From assembly GCA_029552245.1 (NCBI GenBank), contig JAKPDW010000049.1, forward strand, positions 1 to 45,634: 45,634 bases of DNA, written 5' to 3'. Within the stretch, counting starts at the first letter, position 1. Every line of letters starts with the position of its first letter. The translations under genes and the position numbers were made by a program. Below are positions 21,439 through 45,634 of the stretch, one piece after another. The DNA is from Deltaproteobacteria bacterium (lineage in GTDB: Bacteria; Desulfobacterota; Desulfomonilia; UBA1062). The notes beneath the pieces are model-generated. The model was not told the origin of the DNA. It saw nothing but the letters and a program-made list of their open reading frames with translations, and made no database searches.

Positions 21439-21826
21439 GGGCGATTCTCTCCGGGCCGGGTGTCCGCCCGCCTCGGGGTGAACAGCGCCTCGAGGATTCG
21501 GACACCCGCGCCTTCCGGCTGCATTGCGCGCGCCAAAGCGGCGCATGTGTGGAGAGTCTCCTCCGTGCTTGTCCGACCCGTGAGCGCGGCAGTGGGCCAC
21601 GCCCCCGCACGCACGACGGCCTCGGCGATGACAGCCCCTGGGAAGACCGTGATCGCGGCGGTGGATCCCCGTTACGCGGACACCCTCTCTGGCCTGTCTT
21701 TCCCGGTACAGACGAGCCTGCCCGTCCTGCACCCGGGACGATCGCGACGACTTGATTCGCGCGAACCACGTGTGCTATGGCAACTGGCGTCACCCGCGAC
21801 CCGCGAGGGAGTGCGGGCGAGGCTCT
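21439..21826. other. Non-coding spacer between the MFS gene and ktrB
   Basis: About 390 bases. It contains a widely spaced 9-base inverted repeat, GGGTGTCCG at 21458-21466 and CGGACACCC at 21499-21507, with no T run. No gene, RNA or clear promoter is supported. Confidence 0.4.
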
Positions 21827-23212
21827 ATGGCGATACGCGACCTCATCCGAAAGGCCCCGAAGCCGGGCTCTCTGAAGAGCCCACCGTTCGCCTTCATACT
21901 GAGCTACCTGCTGGCCGTCATGGTCGGCGGCGTTCTCCTCAAGAGCCCGGCCTGCCTCGAGGAGGGCCGGCACATCTCGTGGATCGACGCCTTCTACACG
22001 GCCACCTCGGCTGTCTGTGTGACCGGGCTGACCGTGGTGGAAACCGGCCGGACCTTTTCCACGGCCGGAGAACTCGTCATCCTCGCGCTCATCCAGTTCG
22101 GGGGGTTCGGTCTCATGGCCTTCTTCGCCATGGCCTTCTTGTGGGCCGGCTCGAGGGTGAGCACGCAGCAGTCGTCGTTCATCAAGGAAAACTACTCCCA
22201 GACCATGATCTACGACGCACGGCTCATCCTGAGGATCCTCCTGGCCTACACCCTCCTGTGCGAGGCGGTGGGAGTGATTCTCCTCGTGCCGGCTTGGGAC
22301 CACCCCATGACGACATGGCAACGGCTCTATTTCGGCCTGTTCCATTCCGTCTCCGCCTTCAACAATGCGGGGTTCTCCCTCTTTGCCGAGAACCTCTGCG
22401 GCTACAGGGGCGACATCCTGCTCAACCTCACGATCACCTCGCTCGTCATCCTAGGCGGGATCGGCTCCCCGGTGATACTCGACTGCTGGTCGTACCTCCA
22501 CTCGCCCACGAGGTTCCGCTTCTCGCTCCACACCAAGCTCGCCGTGAGCACCACCGCCGCGCTCATAGCAGGGGGCACGGCGGCCATATGGCTCATACAG
22601 AGGCCTTCGCCGCTCTTCGAGATCCCCCTGCACGAACAGGCGCTCATCTCGTACTTCCAGGCGGTGACCGCGCGTACCGCGGGGTTCAACACCATAGACC
22701 TGCGCCAGCTCGGCACCGCCCCCATCATGATCATCATTCTCCTCATGTTCGTGGGTGCGTCGCCGGGGTCCTGCGGCGGCGGGATCAAGACGACCAGCCT
22801 GGCCACCCTGCTCGTGGTGCTCTGGAACAGGATAAAGGGGCGAAGCGTCAACAACGTGTTCAGGACGACGCTCCCGACCAAGGTGGTGAACAGGACCATC
22901 TCCATCTTCATCCTCGCCTCGATCTTCGTGATCGTCGTCCTGACCGCCCTGCTCATCACCCAGGTGGGCGAGCTCCCGCACGACAAGAGCGGCGGGATGT
23001 TCATCGAGTACCTCTTCGAGACCATATCGGCCTTCGGCACCGTCGGGCTGTCCCTTGGGGCGACGGCGAAGATGGACGGAGTCGGAAAGATCCTCATCAT
23101 GCTCACCATGCTCGTCGGCAGGGTGGGGATCATGACCATCGCGTACCTCTTCACGAGCAGGGAGTCCACCGCGCGCTACCAGTTCGTCGAGGAAGACGTG
23201 ATGATAGGATGA
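21827..23212 (+). CDS. ktrB: TrkH/KtrB-type potassium uptake channel subunit
   Basis: A 461-residue membrane protein of the SKT superfamily with four pore-loop repeats. The selectivity-filter loops can be read in order: SAVCVTGLTV, AFNNAGFSLF, ARTAGFNTI and FGTVGLSLGA. Each has the filter glycine. Size and loop sequence favour KtrB over the longer TrkH. The ATG at 21827 follows GCGAGG and begins the basic N-terminus MAIRDLIRK; an ATG at 21752 is in frame but less likely. It forms an operon with the RCK subunit 19 bases downstream. Ktr channels take up K+, often Na+-dependently. Confidence 0.88.
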   Translation: MAIRDLIRKAPKPGSLKSPPFAFILSYLLAVMVGGVLLKSPACLEEGRHISWIDAFYTATSAVCVTGLTVVETGRTFSTAGELVILALIQFGGFGLMAFFAMAFLWAGSRVSTQQSSFIKENYSQTMIYDARLILRILLAYTLLCEAVGVILLVPAWDHPMTTWQRLYFGLFHSVSAFNNAGFSLFAENLCGYRGDILLNLTITSLVILGGIGSPVILDCWSYLHSPTRFRFSLHTKLAVSTTAALIAGGTAAIWLIQRPSPLFEIPLHEQALISYFQAVTARTAGFNTIDLRQLGTAPIMIIILLMFVGASPGSCGGGIKTTSLATLLVVLWNRIKGRSVNNVFRTTLPTKVVNRTISIFILASIFVIVVLTALLITQVGELPHDKSGGMFIEYLFETISAFGTVGLSLGATAKMDGVGKILIMLTMLVGRVGIMTIAYLFTSRESTARYQFVEEDVMIG

Positions 23213-23231: not shown

Positions 23232-23888
23232 ATGAAGAGAAAGTACGTGGTCATTGGACTGGGCAACTTCGGGTTCTGGGTCGCAAAGACCCTGTTCGAG
23301 GCCCACCAGGAAACGATCGCCATCGACATGAACAAGGAGGCGGTGCAGCGGGTCAACAAGTTCTCGAACATGGCGGTGATAGCGGACGTCACGAACAAGG
23401 AGACGCTCGTGGGCCTCGGCATAGCGGACTGCGACGCGGCGGTCGTGAGCCTGGGGGATCACCCGGCCGCATCCACCCTGGTGACGCTCTACCTCCACGA
23501 GATGGGCGTGAAGCAGATCCTCGTCAAGGCCATCGACGAGAACCACGCGAAGATCCTCAGGAAGGTGGGGGCCACCGACATCATCTTCCCGGAGAAGGAC
23601 ATGGGCATCAAGGTGGCGAAGACCCTCGTCAGCCCGAACATCCTGGATTTCATCGAGATGACCGAGGACTACGAGATAACGCAGATCGGCCCGCCTGCTT
23701 CGTTCATAGGCAAGACCCTCATGGAGCTCGAGCTGCCGAGCAGGTTCGGGCTCCAGGTGATAGCGGTGCGCGAGCTCATCCCGGAGAACTTCATCCCCGC
23801 GCCGAGGGCCGACTTCGTGATCAAGGACAGCGACATCCTCTATATCCTCGGCAGGAAGAAGGACATCGAGCGCATAAAGGCGTTGTGA
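23232..23888 (+). CDS. ktrA: TrkA/KtrA-type regulatory RCK subunit
   Basis: A 218-residue cytoplasmic protein. The N-terminal RCK/Rossmann domain has VVIGLGNFGFWVAKTL and an acidic AIDMNKEAV at the end of the second strand, which binds nucleotides. An RCK-C (TrkA_C) domain follows from about residue 140 (DYEITQIGPPASFIGKTL). The single-unit length is that of KtrA rather than double-unit TrkA. AAAGGA precedes the ATG. Gates the KtrB pore encoded just upstream. Confidence 0.93.
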   Translation: MKRKYVVIGLGNFGFWVAKTLFEAHQETIAIDMNKEAVQRVNKFSNMAVIADVTNKETLVGLGIADCDAAVVSLGDHPAASTLVTLYLHEMGVKQILVKAIDENHAKILRKVGATDIIFPEKDMGIKVAKTLVSPNILDFIEMTEDYEITQIGPPASFIGKTLMELELPSRFGLQVIAVRELIPENFIPAPRADFVIKDSDILYILGRKKDIERIKAL

Positions 23889-33865: not shown

Positions 33866-34618
33866 TCATCCGCTTTCACCCAGGTAATCACCCATGATCC
33901 TCGCTATGTAGGTGCGGGTCTCCCGGGGGAGCCTGCCGGGGTTTCTCTCCAGGTTTCCCGGTCCCCAGTTGTAGGCTGCGAGCGCCTTCTCGACATCTCC
34001 CTCATACCTCTCGAGGAGATCCTTGAGAAAGCGGGTGCCCGCCATGACGTTCTCTTCGGGATCGTAGGCGTCCTTCACACCGAGGGCCCTCGCCGTCTCG
34101 GGCATGAGCTGCATCAGCCCCATGGCACCTTTCGGGGAGGTGGCCTTCGGGTCGAAGCCGCTCTCGGCACGGATCACCGAGACGATGAGGCGCCTGTCAA
34201 CGCCGTAGGTCGCGGAGGCCTTGTCGACGATACCCTCGAGATCGATGCCCTTGGCGGGCATGTCATCCATCCCGCGGGACCGTTCGTCTTTTGACTCTCC
34301 AGGGGAGAGACCGGTTATCCCAAGGTCGGCAGGCGGCAAGGGGATCCCAGCCAGGGACGGTTCGCCATCGCCGTCAGAGCCGGACAGGGCGTCCATAACA
34401 GACCGGCTCATCCCGATGGTGATCAGCTCCAGGAGGACGGCAAGCTTCTGTCTCTGTGCCTCGTCGGCCTGCCCTGCTGCGGTCTTCACCCTTGCCGCCG
34501 ATTCCATGAGCTCGTGAAAGGTGTCGGCTCCGGCGGCTTTCACAGGGGGGGCCTGGCCGCTCGCCGACGGGAGTTCCCTGATCATTCGTTCCAGTATCAA
34601 AGCGGGTGGGACCCTCAT
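33866..34618 (-). CDS. Soluble lytic transglycosylase (Slt domain) without signal peptide
   Basis: A 250-residue protein. The C-terminal Slt/lysozyme-like domain (about residues 125-245) has the catalytic glutamate Glu152 in IRAESGFDPKATS, then GAMGLMQLMPETA and AAYNWGPGNLERNPG, as in enzymes cutting peptidoglycan with a 1,6-anhydro product. The first 120 residues are helical and low-complexity, with no signal peptide or membrane helix. Export would need another route, for example a flagellar-type system. The ATG at 34618 has AAGGGAG five bases upstream. A sigma-54-like promoter lies just in front, which fits a flagellar link (inference). Confidence 0.88.
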   Translation of the reverse strand: MRVPPALILERMIRELPSASGQAPPVKAAGADTFHELMESAARVKTAAGQADEAQRQKLAVLLELITIGMSRSVMDALSGSDGDGEPSLAGIPLPPADLGITGLSPGESKDERSRGMDDMPAKGIDLEGIVDKASATYGVDRRLIVSVIRAESGFDPKATSPKGAMGLMQLMPETARALGVKDAYDPEENVMAGTRFLKDLLERYEGDVEKALAAYNWGPGNLERNPGRLPRETRTYIARIMGDYLGESG

Positions 34619-34652
34619 CGCCACTCCCTTGCAAGAGTATGCCCTTAAGCTT

Positions 34653-34667
34653 ACAAAACCCGTGCCA
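34653..34667 (-). promoter_or_regulatory. Sigma-54-type -24/-12 promoter of the lytic transglycosylase gene
   Basis: On the minus strand, TGGCACG-N4-TTGT spans 34667 to 34653. The -24 box is an exact match. The -12 box is TTGT instead of TTGC, with exact spacing. The expected start of transcription is about 12 bases further on (near 34641), leaving a leader of some 23 bases that includes the ribosome binding site. Confidence 0.6.
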
Positions 34668-34850
34668 CATCCGGCCTCTTCACGGTGGAGAGTCCCATGA
34701 AGACCTTCCGTCCCGCTCTCGACATCGAGGGGGGCGTCCGGGATCGCCTTCCGCCGAACGTTCACCACGGGCGCGCCCGCTGTCTTCGCACGGGGGAGGC
34801 GGCCGAGGCGGGGCCTCGACGGGGATCCTGCGTGCATGGCCGCGAGAGGT

Positions 34851-35492
34851 TCAAAGCCCCTCGGGTTCCTGGGCGAGCCTTGCGGCCTTGATCTTCATGA
34901 GCCTCGTCGTGTTGGAGCGCTCCATCTCGTCGAGCTTGCCGGTGATGAACCGGATGGTTTCGGTCATGCGCGGGATGAAGGTGTGTTCCAGGGCGTTCAC
35001 CCGCCTCCTCGTCCGCTCGATCTCGATGCAGAGGAGGCGCACCGTCTCCTCCAGTTGGGCCATGGCCACGAGCTTGGGGAGGAAGCCCCTGAGGCGCTCG
35101 ATCGCACCGTCCAGCTCCGGGGGCGTCAGGACCAGGGAGTACAAGCCCTCGGGCTCGCCCATGGTCACGTTCAATGCGGGTACCGCTACCCCCATGATCC
35201 TCTTTTGCCCTGGCTCCACCTCGAGACTTCTCCGGCAGCCCTCGAGAGCATCCTCCACGATCCTGCTCGAAGACGCGGCCTGGGCGAGCACGAAGAGCTT
35301 GAGCACCCCCGGCAACTCGTCGTCCACTTCCCTGCGAGACCGCCTATAGAGCTCCGCCACCCCCCTGAACTCGCGCGTGAGCCCCTCGAGCTTGTCCTTG
35401 AGGAGCTTGTGGCCCCGCACCGCGACGGCGAGCTTCCTCCGCAGCTTGAGGAGCTCCATCCGGGTGGGGTTGACTGCGAGTTTCCCGGCCAT
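34851..35492 (-). CDS. atpD: V-type ATPase subunit D (central stalk)
   Basis: A 213-residue, mostly coiled-coil protein forming the rotating shaft inside the A3B3 head. The N-terminal NPTRMELLKLRRKLAVAVRG and the C-terminal RTRRRVNALEHTFIPRM are family hallmarks. It follows atpB by 6 bases and is the last gene of the operon. No intrinsic terminator is seen after it. Confidence 0.95.
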   Translation of the reverse strand: MAGKLAVNPTRMELLKLRRKLAVAVRGHKLLKDKLEGLTREFRGVAELYRRSRREVDDELPGVLKLFVLAQAASSSRIVEDALEGCRRSLEVEPGQKRIMGVAVPALNVTMGEPEGLYSLVLTPPELDGAIERLRGFLPKLVAMAQLEETVRLLCIEIERTRRRVNALEHTFIPRMTETIRFITGKLDEMERSNTTRLMKIKAARLAQEPEGL

Positions 35493-35498
35493 ACCCCG

Positions 35499-36890
35499 TC
35501 ACCTCGGCAGGTACTTGTCCACGTATTCATCCCTGACGCGCTTGAGCTCGCCCCGCGGTATGAGCGTGAGCAGCTCCCACCCGATGCGCAGGCTCTCCTC
35601 GATGGGCCTGTCCTCGTCTTCACCCTGCCTCACGAAACGATCCTCGAACGCATCGGCGAAGGCGACGAAGGCGAGATCCACGTCAGTGAGCGCACCCTCG
35701 CCGAGTATCACGGCGAGCTCCTTGGCGTTCTTTCCCCTGGCGTAGGCGGCATAGAGCTGGTTCATGAGATCCGCGTGGTCCTCCCTGGTCTTTCCCGCAC
35801 CGATCCCCTTGTCCTTGAGCCTGGACAAAGAGGGCAACACGTCCACCGGCGGGTAGACGCCCTGGGTATGGAGCCCCCTGTTGATGATGATCTGTCCCTC
35901 GGTGATGTACCCGGTGAGGTCCGGCACCGGGTGGGTCTTGTCGTCCTCCGGCATGGTGAGCACCGGTATCTGCGTGATGGACCCCTTTCTCCCCTTGATC
36001 CTGCCCGCCCTCTCGTAGATGGTCGCCAGGTCGGTGTAGAGGTAGCCGGGATAGCCCCTCCTTCCCGGCACCTCCCGGCGGGCCGCCGAGATCTCTCTCA
36101 GCGCCTCGCAGTAGTTCGTCATGTCGATGAGGATGACGAGCACGTTCATCTCCCTCTCGTAGGCGAGGTACTCCGCCGCGGTGAGCGCCATGCGGGGCAA
36201 CGCGATGCGCTCGATCGGCGGGTCGTCGGCCAGGTTGACGAAGAGGACGGTGCGTTCTATGGCGCCGGTACGCCTGAAGTCGGTCACGAAGAACTGCGAC
36301 TCTTCGAAGGTGATCCCCATGGCGGCGAAGACCACGGCAAACCCCTCGCCGCTCGCCCTGACCGTCGCCTGGCGCGCGATCTGTGCGGCAAGACGCGTAT
36401 GGGGGAGACCCGACCCCGAGAATATCGGCAGCTTCTGCCCCCTGACGAGCGTGTTGAGCAGGTCGATGGTCGAGATCCCCGTCTGGATGAACTCGTTCGG
36501 GTAATCCCTCGAGAACGGGTTCATGGGCGTGCCGTTCACGTTCTGGTAACGCTCGGGGATGATGGGCGGGCCGTCGTCCTTGACCCGGCCGAACCCGTCG
36601 AACACCCTGCCGAGCATGTCCGGGGAGACACCGAGCTCCATACCCTTGCCGAGGAACTTCACCTTCACGTCGCTGGGGGAGATCCCGCTCGTTCCTTCGA
36701 AGACCTGGACGAGCGCCTTGGCGCCGCTCACCTCGAGGACCCGACCCCTGCGCATGGAGCCGTCCGAGAGGAGGATTTCCGCTATCTCACCGTAGGTGAT
36801 GCCGTCGAGGCCGTCCACCAGCATGAGCGGGCCCACGACCTGCCTCACGGTCCTGTATTCCCTGGCTGCATCAGGTATGCCCAGTTTCAT
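35499..36890 (-). CDS. atpB: V-type ATPase subunit B
   Basis: A 463-residue non-catalytic nucleotide-binding subunit of the head. It starts [17 protein letters not shown], has [18 protein letters not shown] in place of a functional P-loop (as expected for subunit B), and the conserved [20 protein letters not shown] and [20 protein letters not shown]. Length is standard. AGAGGAA precedes the ATG. It lies 36 bases after atpA. Confidence 0.97.
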
Positions 36891-36926: not shown

Positions 36927-38684
36927 TCACCCCGCCAGTGCGCCGACGGCCTCGACCGCCTGGCGCTCTATCAGGTCGAACCTCTCGAGGTCATCCTCCG
37001 GCACGAGTTTCGCGCGCGCGATATCCTCGAGGACAGCGAGCCCGAGGATGTCTTCCAGGAGCGCACCCTTGGCGAGGGCTTCTTTCGCCTCGTCGTAGAA
37101 CCTGAGGATCACCCTGAGGATCGCGAACTGCTTGGGGATGGAGGTGTAGGTGTCCCTCTCGTCGAACGCGTTCTGGTGGAGGAAGTCCTCTCGGATCATC
37201 TTCGCCGCCTGCATGAGGAGCCTGTCTTCCATCGCCAGGGCGTCGACGCCCACGAGGCGGACGAGTTCCTCGAGCTCGGCCTCGCGCTTCAGGATGGCCA
37301 TGGCGCGCTTCCTGTTCTCCGACCACTTGCCGGAGGTGAGGGCGTCCGCGGACTCGTCCACGGCCTCCTGGTAGAGCGAGTACGAGCTCAACCAGTTGAT
37401 CGCCGGGAAGTGCCGGGAGAAGGCGAGCTTGTCGTCCAGCCCCCAGAACACCTTGACCACCCGCAGGGTCGCCTGCACCACCGGCTCCGAGAAATCGCCG
37501 CCCGGCGGCGAGACGGCGCCGATGATGGAGACCGCCCCGGTCCGCTCGCCTCCGCCCAGGCACACCGCGTAACCACCCCTCTCGTAGAAGGCCGCTATGC
37601 GCGAACCGAGATAGGCGGGATACCCCTCCTCGCCCGGCATCTCCTCGAGCCTCCCGGATATCTCGCGCATGGCCTCCGCCCACCTGCTCGTCGAGTCGGC
37701 CATGAGGGCAACCGAATACCCCATGTCCCTGAAGTACTCGGCGATCGTGATGCCCGTGAACACGCTCGCCTCCCTCGCCGCGACAGGCATGTTCGACGTG
37801 TTCGCGACGAGCACGGTCCGCTCCATGAGGGGCTTGCCCGAGGCGGGGTCCATGAGCCTCGGAAACTCCATGAGGACGTCGGTCATCTCGTTGCCCCGCT
37901 CGCCGCACCCGACGTAGACCACGATCCTCGCATCCGCCCATTTCGCGAGCTGATGCTGAACCACCGTCTTCCCGCTGCCGAAGGGCCCGGGGACGCAGGC
38001 GGTGCCTCCCTTCACGATGGGGAAGAACATGTCGATGATCCTCTGGCCCGTGACCAGCTGCTCCTTGGGGTGAAGCTTGCGCCTGACGGGCCGCGGCACG
38101 CGCACGGGCCATTTCTGGAGCATGGTCACGCCGAACGGCCCCTCCGGCCCCTCAATGACGGCAACCTGCGTATCGACCGTTCCGACCACCGGCCCGATCT
38201 CCTTGACGACGCCCGACCTGCCCGGCGGGACCATGATCTTGTGGCTTATGAGCTCCGTCTCCTGCACCTCGCCCAGGATGTCGCCCGGTTCCACCTTGTC
38301 CCCGGCCCTGGCAGCCGGCACGAAGGACCACTTCCTCGAACGGTCGAGCGCCGGCCTCTCGGCGCCCCTGACAATGAAGTCGCCGAAATCCCTCGCCAGG
38401 ACGTCCAGGGGCCTCTGGATGCCGTCGTAGATCGACCTGAGGAGGCCGGGACCGAGCTCCACGGAAAGGGGCTCGCCGGTCCTGAGCACCGGCTGGCCGG
38501 GCCCCAAGCCCTCCGTTTCCTCGTAGACCTGTATCGAGTACTCGTCCCCCCGGATCGCGATGATCTCGCCGAAGAGACGGTACTGGCCCACGCGCACCAC
38601 CTCGTACATGCGCCCACCGTCCAGGCCCTTGGCGACTACAAGGGGCCCGGACACCTTCACGATCCTGCCCTCGCGTTCATCCAT
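36927..38684 (-). CDS. atpA: V-type ATPase subunit A (catalytic)
   Basis: A 585-residue catalytic subunit. A beta-barrel start ([16 protein letters not shown]) is followed by the A-specific non-homologous insert. Walker A is [14 protein letters not shown] near residue 235, with the catalytic glutamate in [13 protein letters not shown] and the arginine-containing [17 protein letters not shown]. Of two ATGs, 38684 is preferred because AAGGGA sits nine bases upstream; 38690 would leave only three. It hydrolyses or makes ATP coupled to rotation. Confidence 0.97.
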
Positions 38685-38772
38685 GTGCATGTTCCCTTCC
38701 TGACCACCACATCGCTTCAGCCACGCCCCCGCGGCCCCCTGTATGCACCCCTCGAGCCCACCTACGAGGGGG

Positions 38773-39093
38773 TCATGCCCCTCCCAGGAGGTCTATGCCG
38801 AGGGAGGACTCGACGAGTCTCCTCGTCTCTTCGTATCCCGTTCCCGTGGCGCCCTCGTGCGTGGGGAGGGCGCAGATCACCGCGCGGCTCCTCTTCCTGA
38901 ACTCCTCGATCGCAGCCGGCGCCTTCCCCGCTAGGACCTCGCTCACGAGCACGAGGGAGACGTCCCGTTGCCCGGCTATGGCCAAGAGGGCCTTCAGGAG
39001 GTCCTCGGGTTCTTCGACCTGCACGGACTCGAAGCCCACCCCCCTGAACGGAGCGACCCAGGCCCTTGGCCCCACCGCGACCGTCTTAGCCAT
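38773..39093 (-). CDS. atpF: V-type ATPase subunit F
   Basis: A 106-residue central-stalk protein with a CheY-like fold: [17 protein letters not shown] at the start, [12 protein letters not shown] in the middle and a helical end. Position between subunits C and A and the length fit subunit F (NtpG in E. hirae). The start overlaps the atpC end by 8 bases. An 88-base gap separates it from atpA. Confidence 0.9.
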
Positions 39094-40087
39094 GGGCGCC
39101 CCCGATCCTTCGCCTCAGGCCGTCGCGATCGACCCCGCCGAGCCTGCCTGTCACGACGAGCGTGAGAAGCCTCAGTTGGTGCTCGAACCCGGCCATGAAC
39201 GAGAAGACCGCCTCGGGCCCAGAGGTCTGCATCCCTCCCAGTGCCGCAACAGACAACAGCCTGTCGTCCACCTTGGAGGCGAACTCGGGAACCCGGTCAA
39301 CCGATCCCCACTCCTGCACCTCCGCCAGGACGTCCCCGATCTCGCCCCCCACGAGGGCGGCCCAGGCCTGGGGGTTTGACTGGAGCGCGAGATCCTCCAC
39401 GAGGCCCGTGAGCTCACCCAGGGGTTGGAGGTGGTTCTCCACCCTCTTCAGGGGTATCCCCAGGGCATGCGCCCTCCAGAGAAGGGTCACCACCTTCGCC
39501 TTGACACGCTCGCGCACGCATGCCCTGATGAAGTCTGACCCGATCCCCTCGGCGGCGTGGAGGAGATACCTGAGGTATGCGCCGTCGAGGAGGATGTCAA
39601 GGTCCAGGGGGGCAAGGTGCTGGATCTCGGACGTGGACCATCCGGGCCACTCCTTGAGGCTCTCCGGTGCCTCCGGCAGCTCCCCCTTCGCCAAGGCCAC
39701 GAGCTGATCCTCGGGAAAGACCACGAAGGGGTAGGGAAACGAGGTGTTCTGCGCCAGCGAGGTCTTCAGGTTCATGAAGTCGTACGGGGCCACGAACACG
39801 TCGACGGGCCCGCTCGACGGGCACATCGAGCGCACGGCCAGGGCCGTGTCGTAGAAGCACCGCTTGGCGATCTCCGTGAAGTCCTCCCACTCGGCCCCGG
39901 GCGTGAGGTATTCCCTGAGGACGGTGTCCTGGAGGTGGGGGATCATGTCCCCGACCTCTTCGAGCGCAAGGAGGCCCATGAAGAAATCCCTGTCCCTGAA
40001 CCGTTCCTCGAGGACGGCGATGCCCCCGCACACGAAGCCCCACCCTCGGACGTATCCGGGAACCGGCTGGACCGCAAGCCCTGTCAT
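39086..40087 (-). CDS. atpC: V-type ATPase subunit C (AC39 family)
   Basis: A 333-residue helical socket subunit linking the central shaft to the membrane ring. Sequence is divergent, but the all-helical composition, the LDLDILLDGAYLRYLL segment near the middle and the operon position support the call. Its start overlaps the atpE stop (ATGA). Confidence 0.88.
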   Translation of the reverse strand: MTGLAVQPVPGYVRGWGFVCGGIAVLEERFRDRDFFMGLLALEEVGDMIPHLQDTVLREYLTPGAEWEDFTEIAKRCFYDTALAVRSMCPSSGPVDVFVAPYDFMNLKTSLAQNTSFPYPFVVFPEDQLVALAKGELPEAPESLKEWPGWSTSEIQHLAPLDLDILLDGAYLRYLLHAAEGIGSDFIRACVRERVKAKVVTLLWRAHALGIPLKRVENHLQPLGELTGLVEDLALQSNPQAWAALVGGEIGDVLAEVQEWGSVDRVPEFASKVDDRLLSVAALGGMQTSGPEAVFSFMAGFEHQLRLLTLVVTGRLGGVDRDGLRRRIGGAHG

Positions 40088-40674
40088 GAAAAGAGCTCCC
40101 GCGCTATCTCGGGGGCCATCTCCAGCTCGAGCACCCCGATGAGGGTTTCGATTCTCATGTCCACCTCGTAGGAAGAACCCACGAACACGAACCCGCCCCG
40201 CTGTCTGAGCCGATCGACGCCGTCCACGTCGATCCTCCCGGAGGCGGCCCTCCCGGCGTTCACCCGCTCGAGGAGCGCCCTGAACACGTCCTCGTCGTCG
40301 GGGTGGACGATGAGGCGCCCGGGGGCTCCACCAGAGGCCTTCTCCACCAAGCGCTCCATCAGCGACTCGTACCTGGCCCTCGGCCAGGAAAGGATTTCCG
40401 CCTTCGCGGTTTCGAACACCCTCCTCACGAGCTCGTTTTTCTTCGCGAGCACGCGTTTCCCGGCCTCCCCCCTGAACAGGGCGAGTTCCCGCTCGAGCCT
40501 TGCGTCCACCTCCCTGGCCTTTGCGGAGAACTCGAGATCGAACGTTCTCGTGATCTTGTCCTTCTCACTTTGAACCCGTTCAAAGGCGGCCTTCTTCGCA
40601 GCCTCGACGATGCGGCCGGCCTCGGTTTCGGCCTCCGCGAGGATGGCGGACCTGATCCGATCTATCCCGTTCAC
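40084..40674 (-). CDS. atpE: V-type ATPase subunit E (peripheral stalk)
   Basis: A 196-residue protein. A long N-terminal charged helix (residues 1-100) is rich in Ala, Glu, Lys and Arg, and is followed by a small globular domain (RLIVHPDDEDVFRALL, GGFVFVGSSYEVDM). It pairs with the small G/H-type subunit to form the stator stalk. The gene precedes atpC with a four-base overlap. Confidence 0.92.
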   Translation of the reverse strand: MNGIDRIRSAILAEAETEAGRIVEAAKKAAFERVQSEKDKITRTFDLEFSAKAREVDARLERELALFRGEAGKRVLAKKNELVRRVFETAKAEILSWPRARYESLMERLVEKASGGAPGRLIVHPDDEDVFRALLERVNAGRAASGRIDVDGVDRLRQRGGFVFVGSSYEVDMRIETLIGVLELEMAPEIARELFS

Positions 40675-40692: not shown

Positions 40693-41211
40693 TCATGATA
40701 GGCCTATGTACTCGAGGGCGACGCCCTGGGTGAGGAACGTGATGAACAGGATGGTCGCGAGCAGGGCGACCACCGCGTACGTCTCCACGAATGCGGGGAA
40801 GAGGATGGCCCTGCCCGCAGCCTCGGGCCTCCTCGCTATGAGCGAGATGCCGGCGGCCGAGGCCTCCCCCTGCTTCATCGCCGAGACCATGAGCGCGAGC
40901 CCGCTTGCGAGCCCTATGAAGAAGAAGGCGATGCCGGTGCCGGGCGTTATCCTGAGCTCGGCCCCCCCTATGAGACCCGTCTGGGTCATCATGAGCACGG
41001 CGATGATGAACCCGTAGAAACCCTGGGTGCCGGGCAGGGCGATCATGACGAGCATCCTGCCGAACAGCTCAGGCTTCTCCCTCATCACGCCCGCGGCCTG
41101 GTGGGACGCCGTGGCGATCCCCCAGGCGGACCCGCTCCCGCCGAGCCCGAACGCGAGCCCGGCACCCGCATAGCAGAGGCCCCTGCCTATCTCGATCATG
41201 TCAGGTGTCAT
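40693..41211 (-). CDS. atpK: V-type ATPase proteolipid subunit K (Na+-type)
   Basis: A 172-residue membrane protein of two fused hairpins (four helices), like NtpK. The ion carboxylate is Glu143 in FVETYAV of helix 4; the first hairpin has none. ALPGTQGFYGF in helix 2 gives Leu59, Thr62, Gln63 and Tyr66, and helix 3 gives Gln114 (MKQGEASAAGI). These correspond to the Na+ site of E. hirae NtpK (Leu61, Thr64, Gln65, Tyr68, Gln110, Glu139). Sodium coupling is therefore predicted. It forms the rotor ring of the membrane part. Confidence 0.94.
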   Translation of the reverse strand: MTPDMIEIGRGLCYAGAGLAFGLGGSGSAWGIATASHQAAGVMREKPELFGRMLVMIALPGTQGFYGFIIAVLMMTQTGLIGGAELRITPGTGIAFFFIGLASGLALMVSAMKQGEASAAGISLIARRPEAAGRAILFPAFVETYAVVALLATILFITFLTQGVALEYIGLS

Positions 41212-43307: not shown

Positions 43308-43619
43308 TCAGGTGCCCTCCAGACGCTCGACGACCTTCTTTGCCAGAGAAGCGATCCTTTCCTCGGGGATGGCCTCCAGCCTTAAGAGTTCTTCCTCGAG
43401 CTCACGCCTCGCACCAAGGAGGAGGTCTGCCTGCCTCGCCATTGCCTGGGCCTCGTAGGAGTCGATCCTCGATGCGAGATCCTTGAGCGCACCCGCGCGG
43501 AAGGCGTCGATCTCGCTCAGCGCCTCGCGCTCTCTGTCGGCGGCCTTCCGGTGGGCGGCCTCTATGATGGCATCCGCCTCTCTCTCGACCTCGACTATGC
43601 GCCTGACGACCTCGGACAC
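43308..43619 (-). CDS. V-type ATPase small peripheral-stalk subunit (G/H type, NtpF-like)
   Basis: A 103-residue, almost entirely coiled-coil protein (VEREADAIIEAAHRKAADRE). It starts at a GTG at 43619 with AAGGAGG five bases upstream; no convincing ATG is in frame nearby. It is the first gene of the nine-gene operon, in the place of ntpF in E. hirae, and should pair with subunit E. Confidence 0.85.
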   Translation of the reverse strand: MSEVVRRIVEVEREADAIIEAAHRKAADREREALSEIDAFRAGALKDLASRIDSYEAQAMARQADLLLGARRELEEELLRLEAIPEERIASLAKKVVERLEGT

Positions 43620-44459
43620 GGGTTCCTCCTTGTTCGGAACAACCCTCGAACCGGGACACGAGCACCGACTGCCGGTCGCTCTCCACCATCCAGCGAGGGT
43701 CTTCTTCCCGTCACCTCCCGGTGACCATAAAAGGGCACGCACAGCCCCGGTGGGCCTCAGGATGAATACCATAACAAAACGAAAACCGCATGCGCCACAG
43801 GAAAGTGATCCGCCTGGACATCCGAAGGCGAGGGCCCCGTGTACCGCGGGGGACACGGGTCTTTCTCGACGACCACCCCGGTGGCAACCTGCCGGCGTCG
43901 TCCCCTCACGGCACAAGGACACGCACGCGCGGCATCACAGACCCTCCCCGATCCAGACAGGCTTCACATGCCACGACCTCTCGTTCTCCCTCATCTTCAC
44001 CAACCCCTCCAGGGGGCAGGGCGTTGACCGGCATGCACGGCCGCACAGGCTCACCGGCCATGACAGGAGCCGCACAAGGGGGCTTGTCCCCATGGTCATC
44101 CGGAGAAACGGGTTTTCCTCCCTGTTCATCTTTTTCGGGGCCCTTCAGAAAGGCGCACTGAAGAAGACTTGCCGGCCACATGCGGCCCTGTCCCCCCGAG
44201 AGGGTCTCTCCCCTTCGCGATAGGAGTAGCGTCTTGGTTTCCATCTTAGGATCCCGGGCGGGAACTCTGTCACCTTCGCGATCGGTATACGCAGCCGAAA
44301 CCGACATGCGGGAAGGGTGCATCTTGAACGGTTTGAACAGGGTGGCTGGCGCTCGCAAGTCTTCTCAAGGAAGGCCGGTACCGGTGCAGTCATTGACGAA
44401 CGCCTCACTGCGTTGAGAAGGGCGGCGCACTCGAGTCTTCGCAAGGGAGGCCCGTTCGC
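43620..44459. other. Divergent non-coding region between the V-ATPase operon and the Cache-like gene
   Basis: About 840 bases. Next to the operon is a small hairpin, GTCACC/GGTGAC around TCCC (43710-43725), in the presumed leader of the first ATPase gene. An imperfect 22-base direct repeat (44358-44379 and 44434-44455) lies near the other end. No gene is supported, and I could not define the ATPase promoter. Confidence 0.45.
44358..44455. repeat. Imperfect direct repeat of 22 bases
   Basis: The copies at 44358-44379 and 44434-44455 share AGTCTTC-x-CAAGG-x-AGGCC-x-GT, with three differences; start-to-start distance is 76 bases. It lies just upstream of the candidate promoter of the secreted Cache-like gene. 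Confidence 0.5.
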
Positions 44460-44595: not shown

Positions 44596-45084
44596 ATGAA
44601 GAGAACATCTGTCGCCGTGTTGGTGGTGGTCTTGGTGCTCATGGGCGTCACCGGGGCTTTTGCCGGAGGCCCCTGCAGCAAGGAGGAGGTGAAGAAGGCG
44701 GTGGAATACGCCGTTGACCTCATCGACGCCAAAGGGGAGGCGGCCTTCGTCGAGCTGGAGAAGTTCCGCTTCTGCGGCGGGGAAGGTTACGTCTGGGTGA
44801 ACGATTTCGATGGGGTGGTGCTCATGCACCCCATCTCCAAGAAGCTGGAGGGCGTCAACCAGGTCAACATCCAGGACCCGACGGGCAAGTACTTCTATGC
44901 CGAGTTCCTCGGCAAGGTCAAGAAAGACGGCGAGGGCTGGGTCAGCTACAAGTGGCTCCACCCCAAGACGAACACGCTTGAGAACAAGTGCTCGTACGCG
45001 AAGGCCGCGCGTGTTGCCGTCAAGGGAAAGAAGGTGTGGTGCGCAGCGGGTGTGTACGGCATCAGCGAGGCCGATTGCAAGTAG
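44596..45084 (+). CDS. Secreted single-Cache-domain protein
   Basis: A 162-residue protein. A clear signal peptide ends near TGAFA-G (about residue 23), followed by one small sensor-like domain with GYVWVNDFDGVVLMHPISKKLEG and DPTGKYFYAEFLGKV, the core of a sCache_2-type ligand-binding domain. KKDGEGWVSYKWLHP precedes the end. Four or more cysteines in the mature part may form disulphides (PCSKEE, FRFCGG, NKCSYA, VWCAAG). It has no membrane anchor or signalling domain, so it is a free periplasmic protein. A GGGGGGAAG stretch precedes the ATG. Monocistronic as far as seen. Confidence 0.85.
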   Translation: MKRTSVAVLVVVLVLMGVTGAFAGGPCSKEEVKKAVEYAVDLIDAKGEAAFVELEKFRFCGGEGYVWVNDFDGVVLMHPISKKLEGVNQVNIQDPTGKYFYAEFLGKVKKDGEGWVSYKWLHPKTNTLENKCSYAKAARVAVKGKKVWCAAGVYGISEADCK

Positions 45085-45333
45085 CTTCGTCAGCAGCTGG
45101 GACTTGCGGCATCCCTGCGCCGGAGCCGGACGTCCTCGGGGCGGCGCCGTCCGCCCTTCTTAAGGCCTCGCCCCGGAGGGTATGGGTCAGGCGCGTCGCG
45201 AAGGCGGGGATCAGGAGAATCCATGTCCAACGACTATGGCGGTCATGACGAAGGGTTTCATGCACATGACGCCGCCATCGTCTTCCGGGATATGGGCGTG
45301 AACAGGAGGCGCTCCTCCGAAGGACAGAGACCT

Positions 45334-45361
45334 GGATCAAAAGTGCGAAACAATCTTGACA
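45334..45361 (-). mobile_element. Possible terminal sequence of another insertion element
   Basis: Where the IS256 similarity ends, the minus strand reads TGTCAAGATTGTTTCGC and continues to 45334. This is AT-richer than its surroundings, begins with TGT and sits exactly at the break, so it may be the end of a second element that inserted and then decayed. I cannot assign a family. Confidence 0.3.
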
Positions 45362-45373
45362 CCACCCAAAGCT

Positions 45374-45595
45374 TCTCTCGTAGTGCCCGGCACGGGTGTA
45401 CTGCCGGTTGGCGCTCCGCTCATAACGGCCAGCTCCTACCAGTTGCTCCGCTTCTGCATCCAGAAGCCCATTGAGCATCTCTTCCACCGTGCCACGCACC
45501 ATCTTGTCCAGATGCCCCTTTATCTGCGCCTCGTCGATCTGGACGATTTGACCTTGACTTGAACACGCCCCGTCATTACCCTTCCTCTTACTCAT
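45374..45595 (-). pseudogene. N-terminal fragment of an IS256-family (Mutator-type) transposase
   Basis: From the ATG at 45595 (GGAGG seven bases upstream) about 74 residues match the start of IS256-type transposases: HLDKMVRGTVEEMLNGLL, AGRYERS and YTRAGHYER. After that the frame stays open to 45062 but the similarity ends, so the gene is broken near 45373. AT-rich sequence at 45601-45634 may include the left end of the element. Confidence 0.75.
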
Positions 45596-45634
45596 CAACG
45601 GTCCTCCTTCGGTTAGAGTTTTTTACCCAAAATC

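Follow-up and report, generated by a model that had tools for sequence, protein, structure and literature searches.

Which ion does the rotary ATPase encoded at this locus carry? The window (45,634 nucleotides, the whole stretch of DNA analysed) is an entire contig, C28, of an uncultured bacterium whose assembly comprises 3.27 Mb in 95 contigs and is 99% complete. The preliminary description of the locus had predicted a sodium-coupled enzyme. The genes prove to be those of a bacterial rotary ATPase of V-type (V/A-type), similar in kind to the E. hirae Ntp enzyme, and the sequence makes Na+ coupling very probable. Ion specificity in V-ATPases of the Syntrophorhabdales was a subject that we did not find treated in the open-access literature, of which our coverage was limited.

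The operon consists of nine tightly arranged genes on the minus strand, running from 43619 down to 34851, and all nine frames are intact (Table 1). Read along that strand the order is stalk, I, K, E, C, F, A, B and D, which confirms the earlier reading of the gene order as ntpFIKECGABD; the E. hirae order is given as F-I-K-E-C-G-A-B-D in passages of PMC9945522 and PMC12604602. Subunits E, C and F are divergent yet score over the Pfam cut-offs. The stalk gene has a GTG start preceded by AAGGAGG, and neither its 103-aa product, identified from its position and weak matches in L004 and L016, nor a longer open reading frame spanning it (43308-43922) gave a family match in NCBIfam or Pfam. Elsewhere in this part of the window, a Single-Cache-domain protein with a signal-like N-terminus (44596-45084, plus strand) is transcribed away from the operon, and a fragment of a mutator-family transposase (45062-45598, minus strand) lies at the contig end and is the likely reason that the assembly stops there.

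Table 1. Features of the V-type ATPase operon and of the potassium-uptake genes in the window.
Feature	Position	Strand	Basis or remark
Coiled-coil stalk protein, 103 aa, NtpF position	43308..43619	-	Position; 27% match in L004 and L016
Subunit I (a, stator), 685 aa	41248..43305	-	Homology; Arg590, Arg648
Subunit K (c), rotor, 172 aa, four helices, predicted NtpK-type Na+ site	40693..41211	-	Homology
Subunit E (peripheral stalk)	40084..40674	-	NCBIfam/Pfam
Subunit C (d, rotor socket)	39086..40087	-	NCBIfam/Pfam
Subunit F (NtpG, central stalk)	38773..39093	-	NCBIfam/Pfam
Catalytic subunit A	36927..38690	-	NCBIfam/Pfam
Subunit B	35499..36890	-	NCBIfam/Pfam
Subunit D (central stalk), final gene of the operon	34851..35492	-	NCBIfam/Pfam
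TrkH/KtrB-type cation transporter, the genome's only TrkH match	21752..23212	+	Possibly linked K+ uptake
TrkA/KtrA-type regulatory subunit	23232..23888	+	Family match

The rotor subunit K is encoded by an intact frame of 172 codons on the minus strand, which the preliminary description did not specify; it scores just over the cut-off of the NCBIfam model NF005124, 'V-type ATP synthase subunit K' (128.1 against 127 bits), and contains two matches to Pfam ATP-synt_C. The hairpin is duplicated to give four helices with a single ion-binding carboxylate, Glu143 in TM4, and no Asp or Glu follows Glu48 within TM2. The best solved sequence relative is E. hirae NtpK (2bl2_A, E = 2.9e-20, 32-34% identity), with the critical segments aligning as LPGTQGFY/LPGTQGLY, KQG/AQG and VETYA/VETYA. 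In this alignment Leu59, Thr62, Gln63, Tyr66, Gln114 and Glu143 each stand opposite their NtpK counterparts, and the residue numbers given earlier are all correct. As set out in passages of PMC2359735, the NtpK site comprises Leu61, Thr64, Gln65, Gln110 and Glu139, to which the leucine contributes its backbone carbonyl, while Tyr68 stabilises the glutamate without binding Na+. The claim that every side chain of the site has its match therefore stands for the aligned residues, but it must be reworded for the leucine, which contributes no side chain, and for the tyrosine, which is no Na+ ligand. The further claim of one carboxylate per four helices holds at the ion-binding position; TM3, however, also carries Glu116, two residues beyond Gln114. 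We considered Glu116 as a second ion-binding carboxylate and think it unlikely, since the position varies (Glu in 27 and Lys in 25 of 72 alignment rows) and the NtpK equivalent is Lys. Residues 113-116 read Lys-Gln-Gly-Glu in this clade and mostly x-Gln-Gly-Lys in other clades, a charge swap beside the ion site.

A ligand rule proposed in 2008, as worded in the part of PMC2359735 that concerns the Gln65 position, predicts a Na+ enzyme where this residue is polar and an H+ enzyme where it is Leu, Ile or Val. As proton-type controls we used solved eukaryotic (plant and animal) V-type c subunits, which in the printed alignments have Val-Leu or Ile-Ile at the positions of Thr62-Gln63 and, in the plant protein, Ile at that of Gln114; the Glu and Tyr are retained. 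The match of K to the NtpK site thus exceeds what chance would give, with proton c subunits of the same four-helix fold lacking the Thr and both Gln residues.

To define how widely the predicted site is kept, K relatives were collected by similarity to the window K, from 25 loci in named genomes and from matches in 395 same-phylum genomes. Any match at all was found in 118 of the 395, many of these covering one hairpin and probably representing F-type c subunits; from this search we used its loci L033-L061 and 18 further full-length places. Leaving out the fragment L026, the set holds 71 rows, at most 68 of them distinct. Thr/Ser-Gln-Tyr-Gln-Glu is present in 71 of the 71 rows (Thr in 57, Ser in 14), a choice of rows by similarity that favours finding the site conserved. 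The backbone-only Leu position is variable, and in a 60-row alignment Pro60, Gln63, Tyr66, Gln114, Gly115 and Glu143 are invariant. Because all the relatives keep the set, the putative Na+ site is a hallmark of the family and no peculiarity of this genome.

An AlphaFold2 model of the K monomer, built with 21 sequences (mean pLDDT 88.6), displays four long helices. Its top match is 2bl2 both with Foldseek (TM 0.81/0.89, rmsd 2.6) and with VIA (Z 21.0, rmsd 2.3 over 154 residues). The yeast and plant proton rotors reach Z 19.4 against the same model, so the predicted fold by itself cannot separate Na+ from H+ rotors. Among solved relatives of subunit I, the E. hirae sodium subunit (8wci) matches with E = 1e-45 and the Thermus subunit with E = 2.4e-24. 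In the window's subunit I, Arg590 and Arg648 fall opposite R573 and R629 of E. hirae, which interact with Glu139 according to passages of PMC10382590; the Thermus alignment has both arginines too, so they point to a functioning stator and are uninformative on the coupling ion. Taken together, the full ligand set, the polar Gln63, the closest fold (2bl2) and a subunit I nearest to the E. hirae sodium subunit support the predicted Na+ coupling, a reading that is well supported but ordinary.

We infer the following mechanism. ATP hydrolysis in A3B3 would turn the D/F/C shaft together with the ring formed by the four-helix K subunits. Every K would load one Na+ from the cytoplasm, bound by the Leu59 carbonyl, Thr62, Gln63, Gln114 and Glu143, with Tyr66 steadying the site; the ion would then pass Arg590/Arg648 of subunit I and be released outside. 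The usual direction would probably be pumping, with Na+ moved out in a manner that would support K+ uptake, not ATP synthesis, because seven of 19 related loci have K+-uptake genes upstream, to be compared with ntpJ of E. hirae (passages of PMC9945522 and PMC12604602).

The 19 loci are those of L002-L025 in which the DNA upstream of I extends for about 2.5 kb or more. The K+-uptake genes lie directly upstream on the same strand in the seven and are absent in the other 12. KUP-TrkH-TrkA is followed by the V-ATPase operon in L010, L013, L015, L020 and L021; TrkH-TrkA stands upstream in L011, where the contig end cuts the locus, and KUP in L012. Pfam searches of four representatives, drawn from L012, L013 and L020, confirm these K+-uptake families. 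A further 36 V-type loci from the phylum, inspected with wider flanks, contain neither KUP nor TrkH-TrkA; three of these share contigs with L004, L007 and L009, which leaves 33 others (0 of 33). A single event, or two, may account for all seven positive loci. The E. hirae ntp operon ends in ntpJ, a KtrB-type K+ transporter gene co-expressed at high Na+ or pH, as described in passages of PMC9945522 and PMC12604602. The window's TrkH-TrkA pair, encoded on the plus strand, is separated from the operon end by about 11 kb and is not operonic with the V-ATPase. With one TrkH in 3.27 Mb, a position within about 11 kb of the operon has a chance of roughly 1% by our own estimate of a pattern noticed post hoc, and because a TrkH of 65-67% identity occurs in two of four congeners, the window TrkH need not have come with the V-ATPase. 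The K+ link is suggestive for the relatives' loci and weak for the window itself. Loci of the Syntrophorhabdales type could combine a Na+-exporting V-ATPase with KUP and TrkH-TrkA in one transcription unit, a Na+-out/K+-in module that arose independently of E. hirae ntp-ntpJ and whose halves lie 11 kb apart in the window; we offer this tentatively, with the balance tilting a little against it.

The genome's other ion-coupled enzymes bear on what the V-ATPase might be for. PF00137 finds five c/K genes (six matches), namely the window K and four F-type c genes; PF00119 finds two F-type a genes, and PF00006 gives eight matches. The set on contig C95 is an N-ATPase, with its alpha (TIGR03324) and c (TIGR03322) subunits each over the cut-off. 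The ion site of all four F-type c proteins reads Glu-Ser-Ile or Glu-Ser-Leu, and they are predicted to be of the H+ type because Ile or Leu follows Glu-Ser, the pattern given in PMC2359735; a Burkholderia N-type ring was measured as H+ specific (passages of PMC5376962). Since the four c subunits show the H+ pattern, the V-ATPase may be the only sodium-type rotary enzyme of the genome. Neither Rnf/Nqr nor OadB was found in the genome, and an independent Na+ economy is therefore without support. Two of the F-type c genes (C49:7082-7273 and C49:105601-105792) have no other ATPase gene evident alongside, and each is followed on the same strand by an open reading frame of about 430 residues whose N-terminal part is hydrophobic and which matches no NCBIfam family. 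The fourth c-like gene (C43:3684-3872) closes a row of small phage-like frames, and its open frame carries a long N-terminal extension. Examined as a possible additional indicator of Na+ use, a divergent membrane pyrophosphatase (C53:58448-60571) finds its closest solved match in a K+-insensitive proton pump and has the unusual TM6 sequence Asp-Gly-Phe-Glu-Thr-Tyr-Gly.

One alternative to a Na+-exporting pump keeps the Na+ coupling and differs in direction only: the enzyme could serve chiefly to make ATP at the expense of a Na+ gradient. V/A-type enzymes are able to run in both directions, as this would require, and several F- and V-type enzymes are expressed within the same syntroph MAGs in passages of PMC7082340. 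We nevertheless consider a synthase unlikely, as F-type alpha/beta, a and c genes and the N-ATPase are already present in the genome, Na+ pumps of the Rnf/Nqr or OadB families were not found in it, and the K+-uptake neighbours of the relatives fit a pump. Less probable still is a proton-coupled or promiscuous V-ATPase that merely retains ancestral Na+ ligands: passages of PMC2359735 describe Na+-type enzymes as able to transport protons once Na+ is missing, and certain H+ enzymes as retaining part of the ligand set, but here the set is complete, includes the Gln63 that is aliphatic in predicted H+ enzymes, and is kept throughout the 71 relatives.

The locus might also be foreign to the assembly, or the operon a decayed acquisition, and its patchy distribution would fit this. 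Among 25 relatives, a close A subunit is found only in G396 (same genus, 81%; on the L003 contig) and, in fragmentary form, in G399 (same family, 75%; on the L002 contig), and the remaining relatives have a V-type A at 45-54% or only F-type and related matches. Against this, G+C is even along the window (62.5-68.1%) and three congeners have the gene from the opposite end of the contig at 70-73% identity, on which grounds we rejected contamination; by its composition and other genes the contig is native. Decay is countered by the nine intact frames of the operon, and this whole explanation is very improbable. A Na+-exporting V-ATPase remains our preferred reading. With it, a V-ATPase of uncultured Thermodesulfobacteriota gains a likely coupling ion, in a host whose other rotary enzymes include an F-type ATPase and an N-ATPase with c subunits of the proton type. 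Judging from the K+ genes beside the operon in relatives, the enzyme may serve Na+/K+ homeostasis rather than energy conservation.

Compared with known systems, the operon resembles E. hirae Ntp (ntpFIKECGABDHJ), with which it shares the order F-I-K-E-C-G-A-B-D, a four-helix K with a complete predicted Na+ site, the closest solved K in both sequence and fold, the closest I sequence, and both stator arginines. It differs in that ntpH and ntpJ are missing from its 3' end, where a transglycosylase gene (33866-34837) comes after D and no KtrB-type gene closes the operon, and in a K at 32-34% identity with Glu116 in place of Lys. The eukaryotic V-type H+-ATPase c subunit is likewise a four-helix proteolipid of similar fold with one essential Glu in TM4, but is aliphatic at the positions of Thr62, Gln63 and Gln114. 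The Thermus V/A-type ATPase, which is H+-coupled, has the same kind of subunit I, whereas its solved K chains have 73-102 residues and match one hairpin. A further comparison is with the V-ATPases of Syntrophorhabdales and related Thermodesulfobacteriota MAGs, whose K subunits share about 77-85% identity in the best segment and have the same site, and whose gene order is the same wherever the locus is long enough; seven of these loci have KUP and/or TrkH-TrkA directly upstream, which the window does not.
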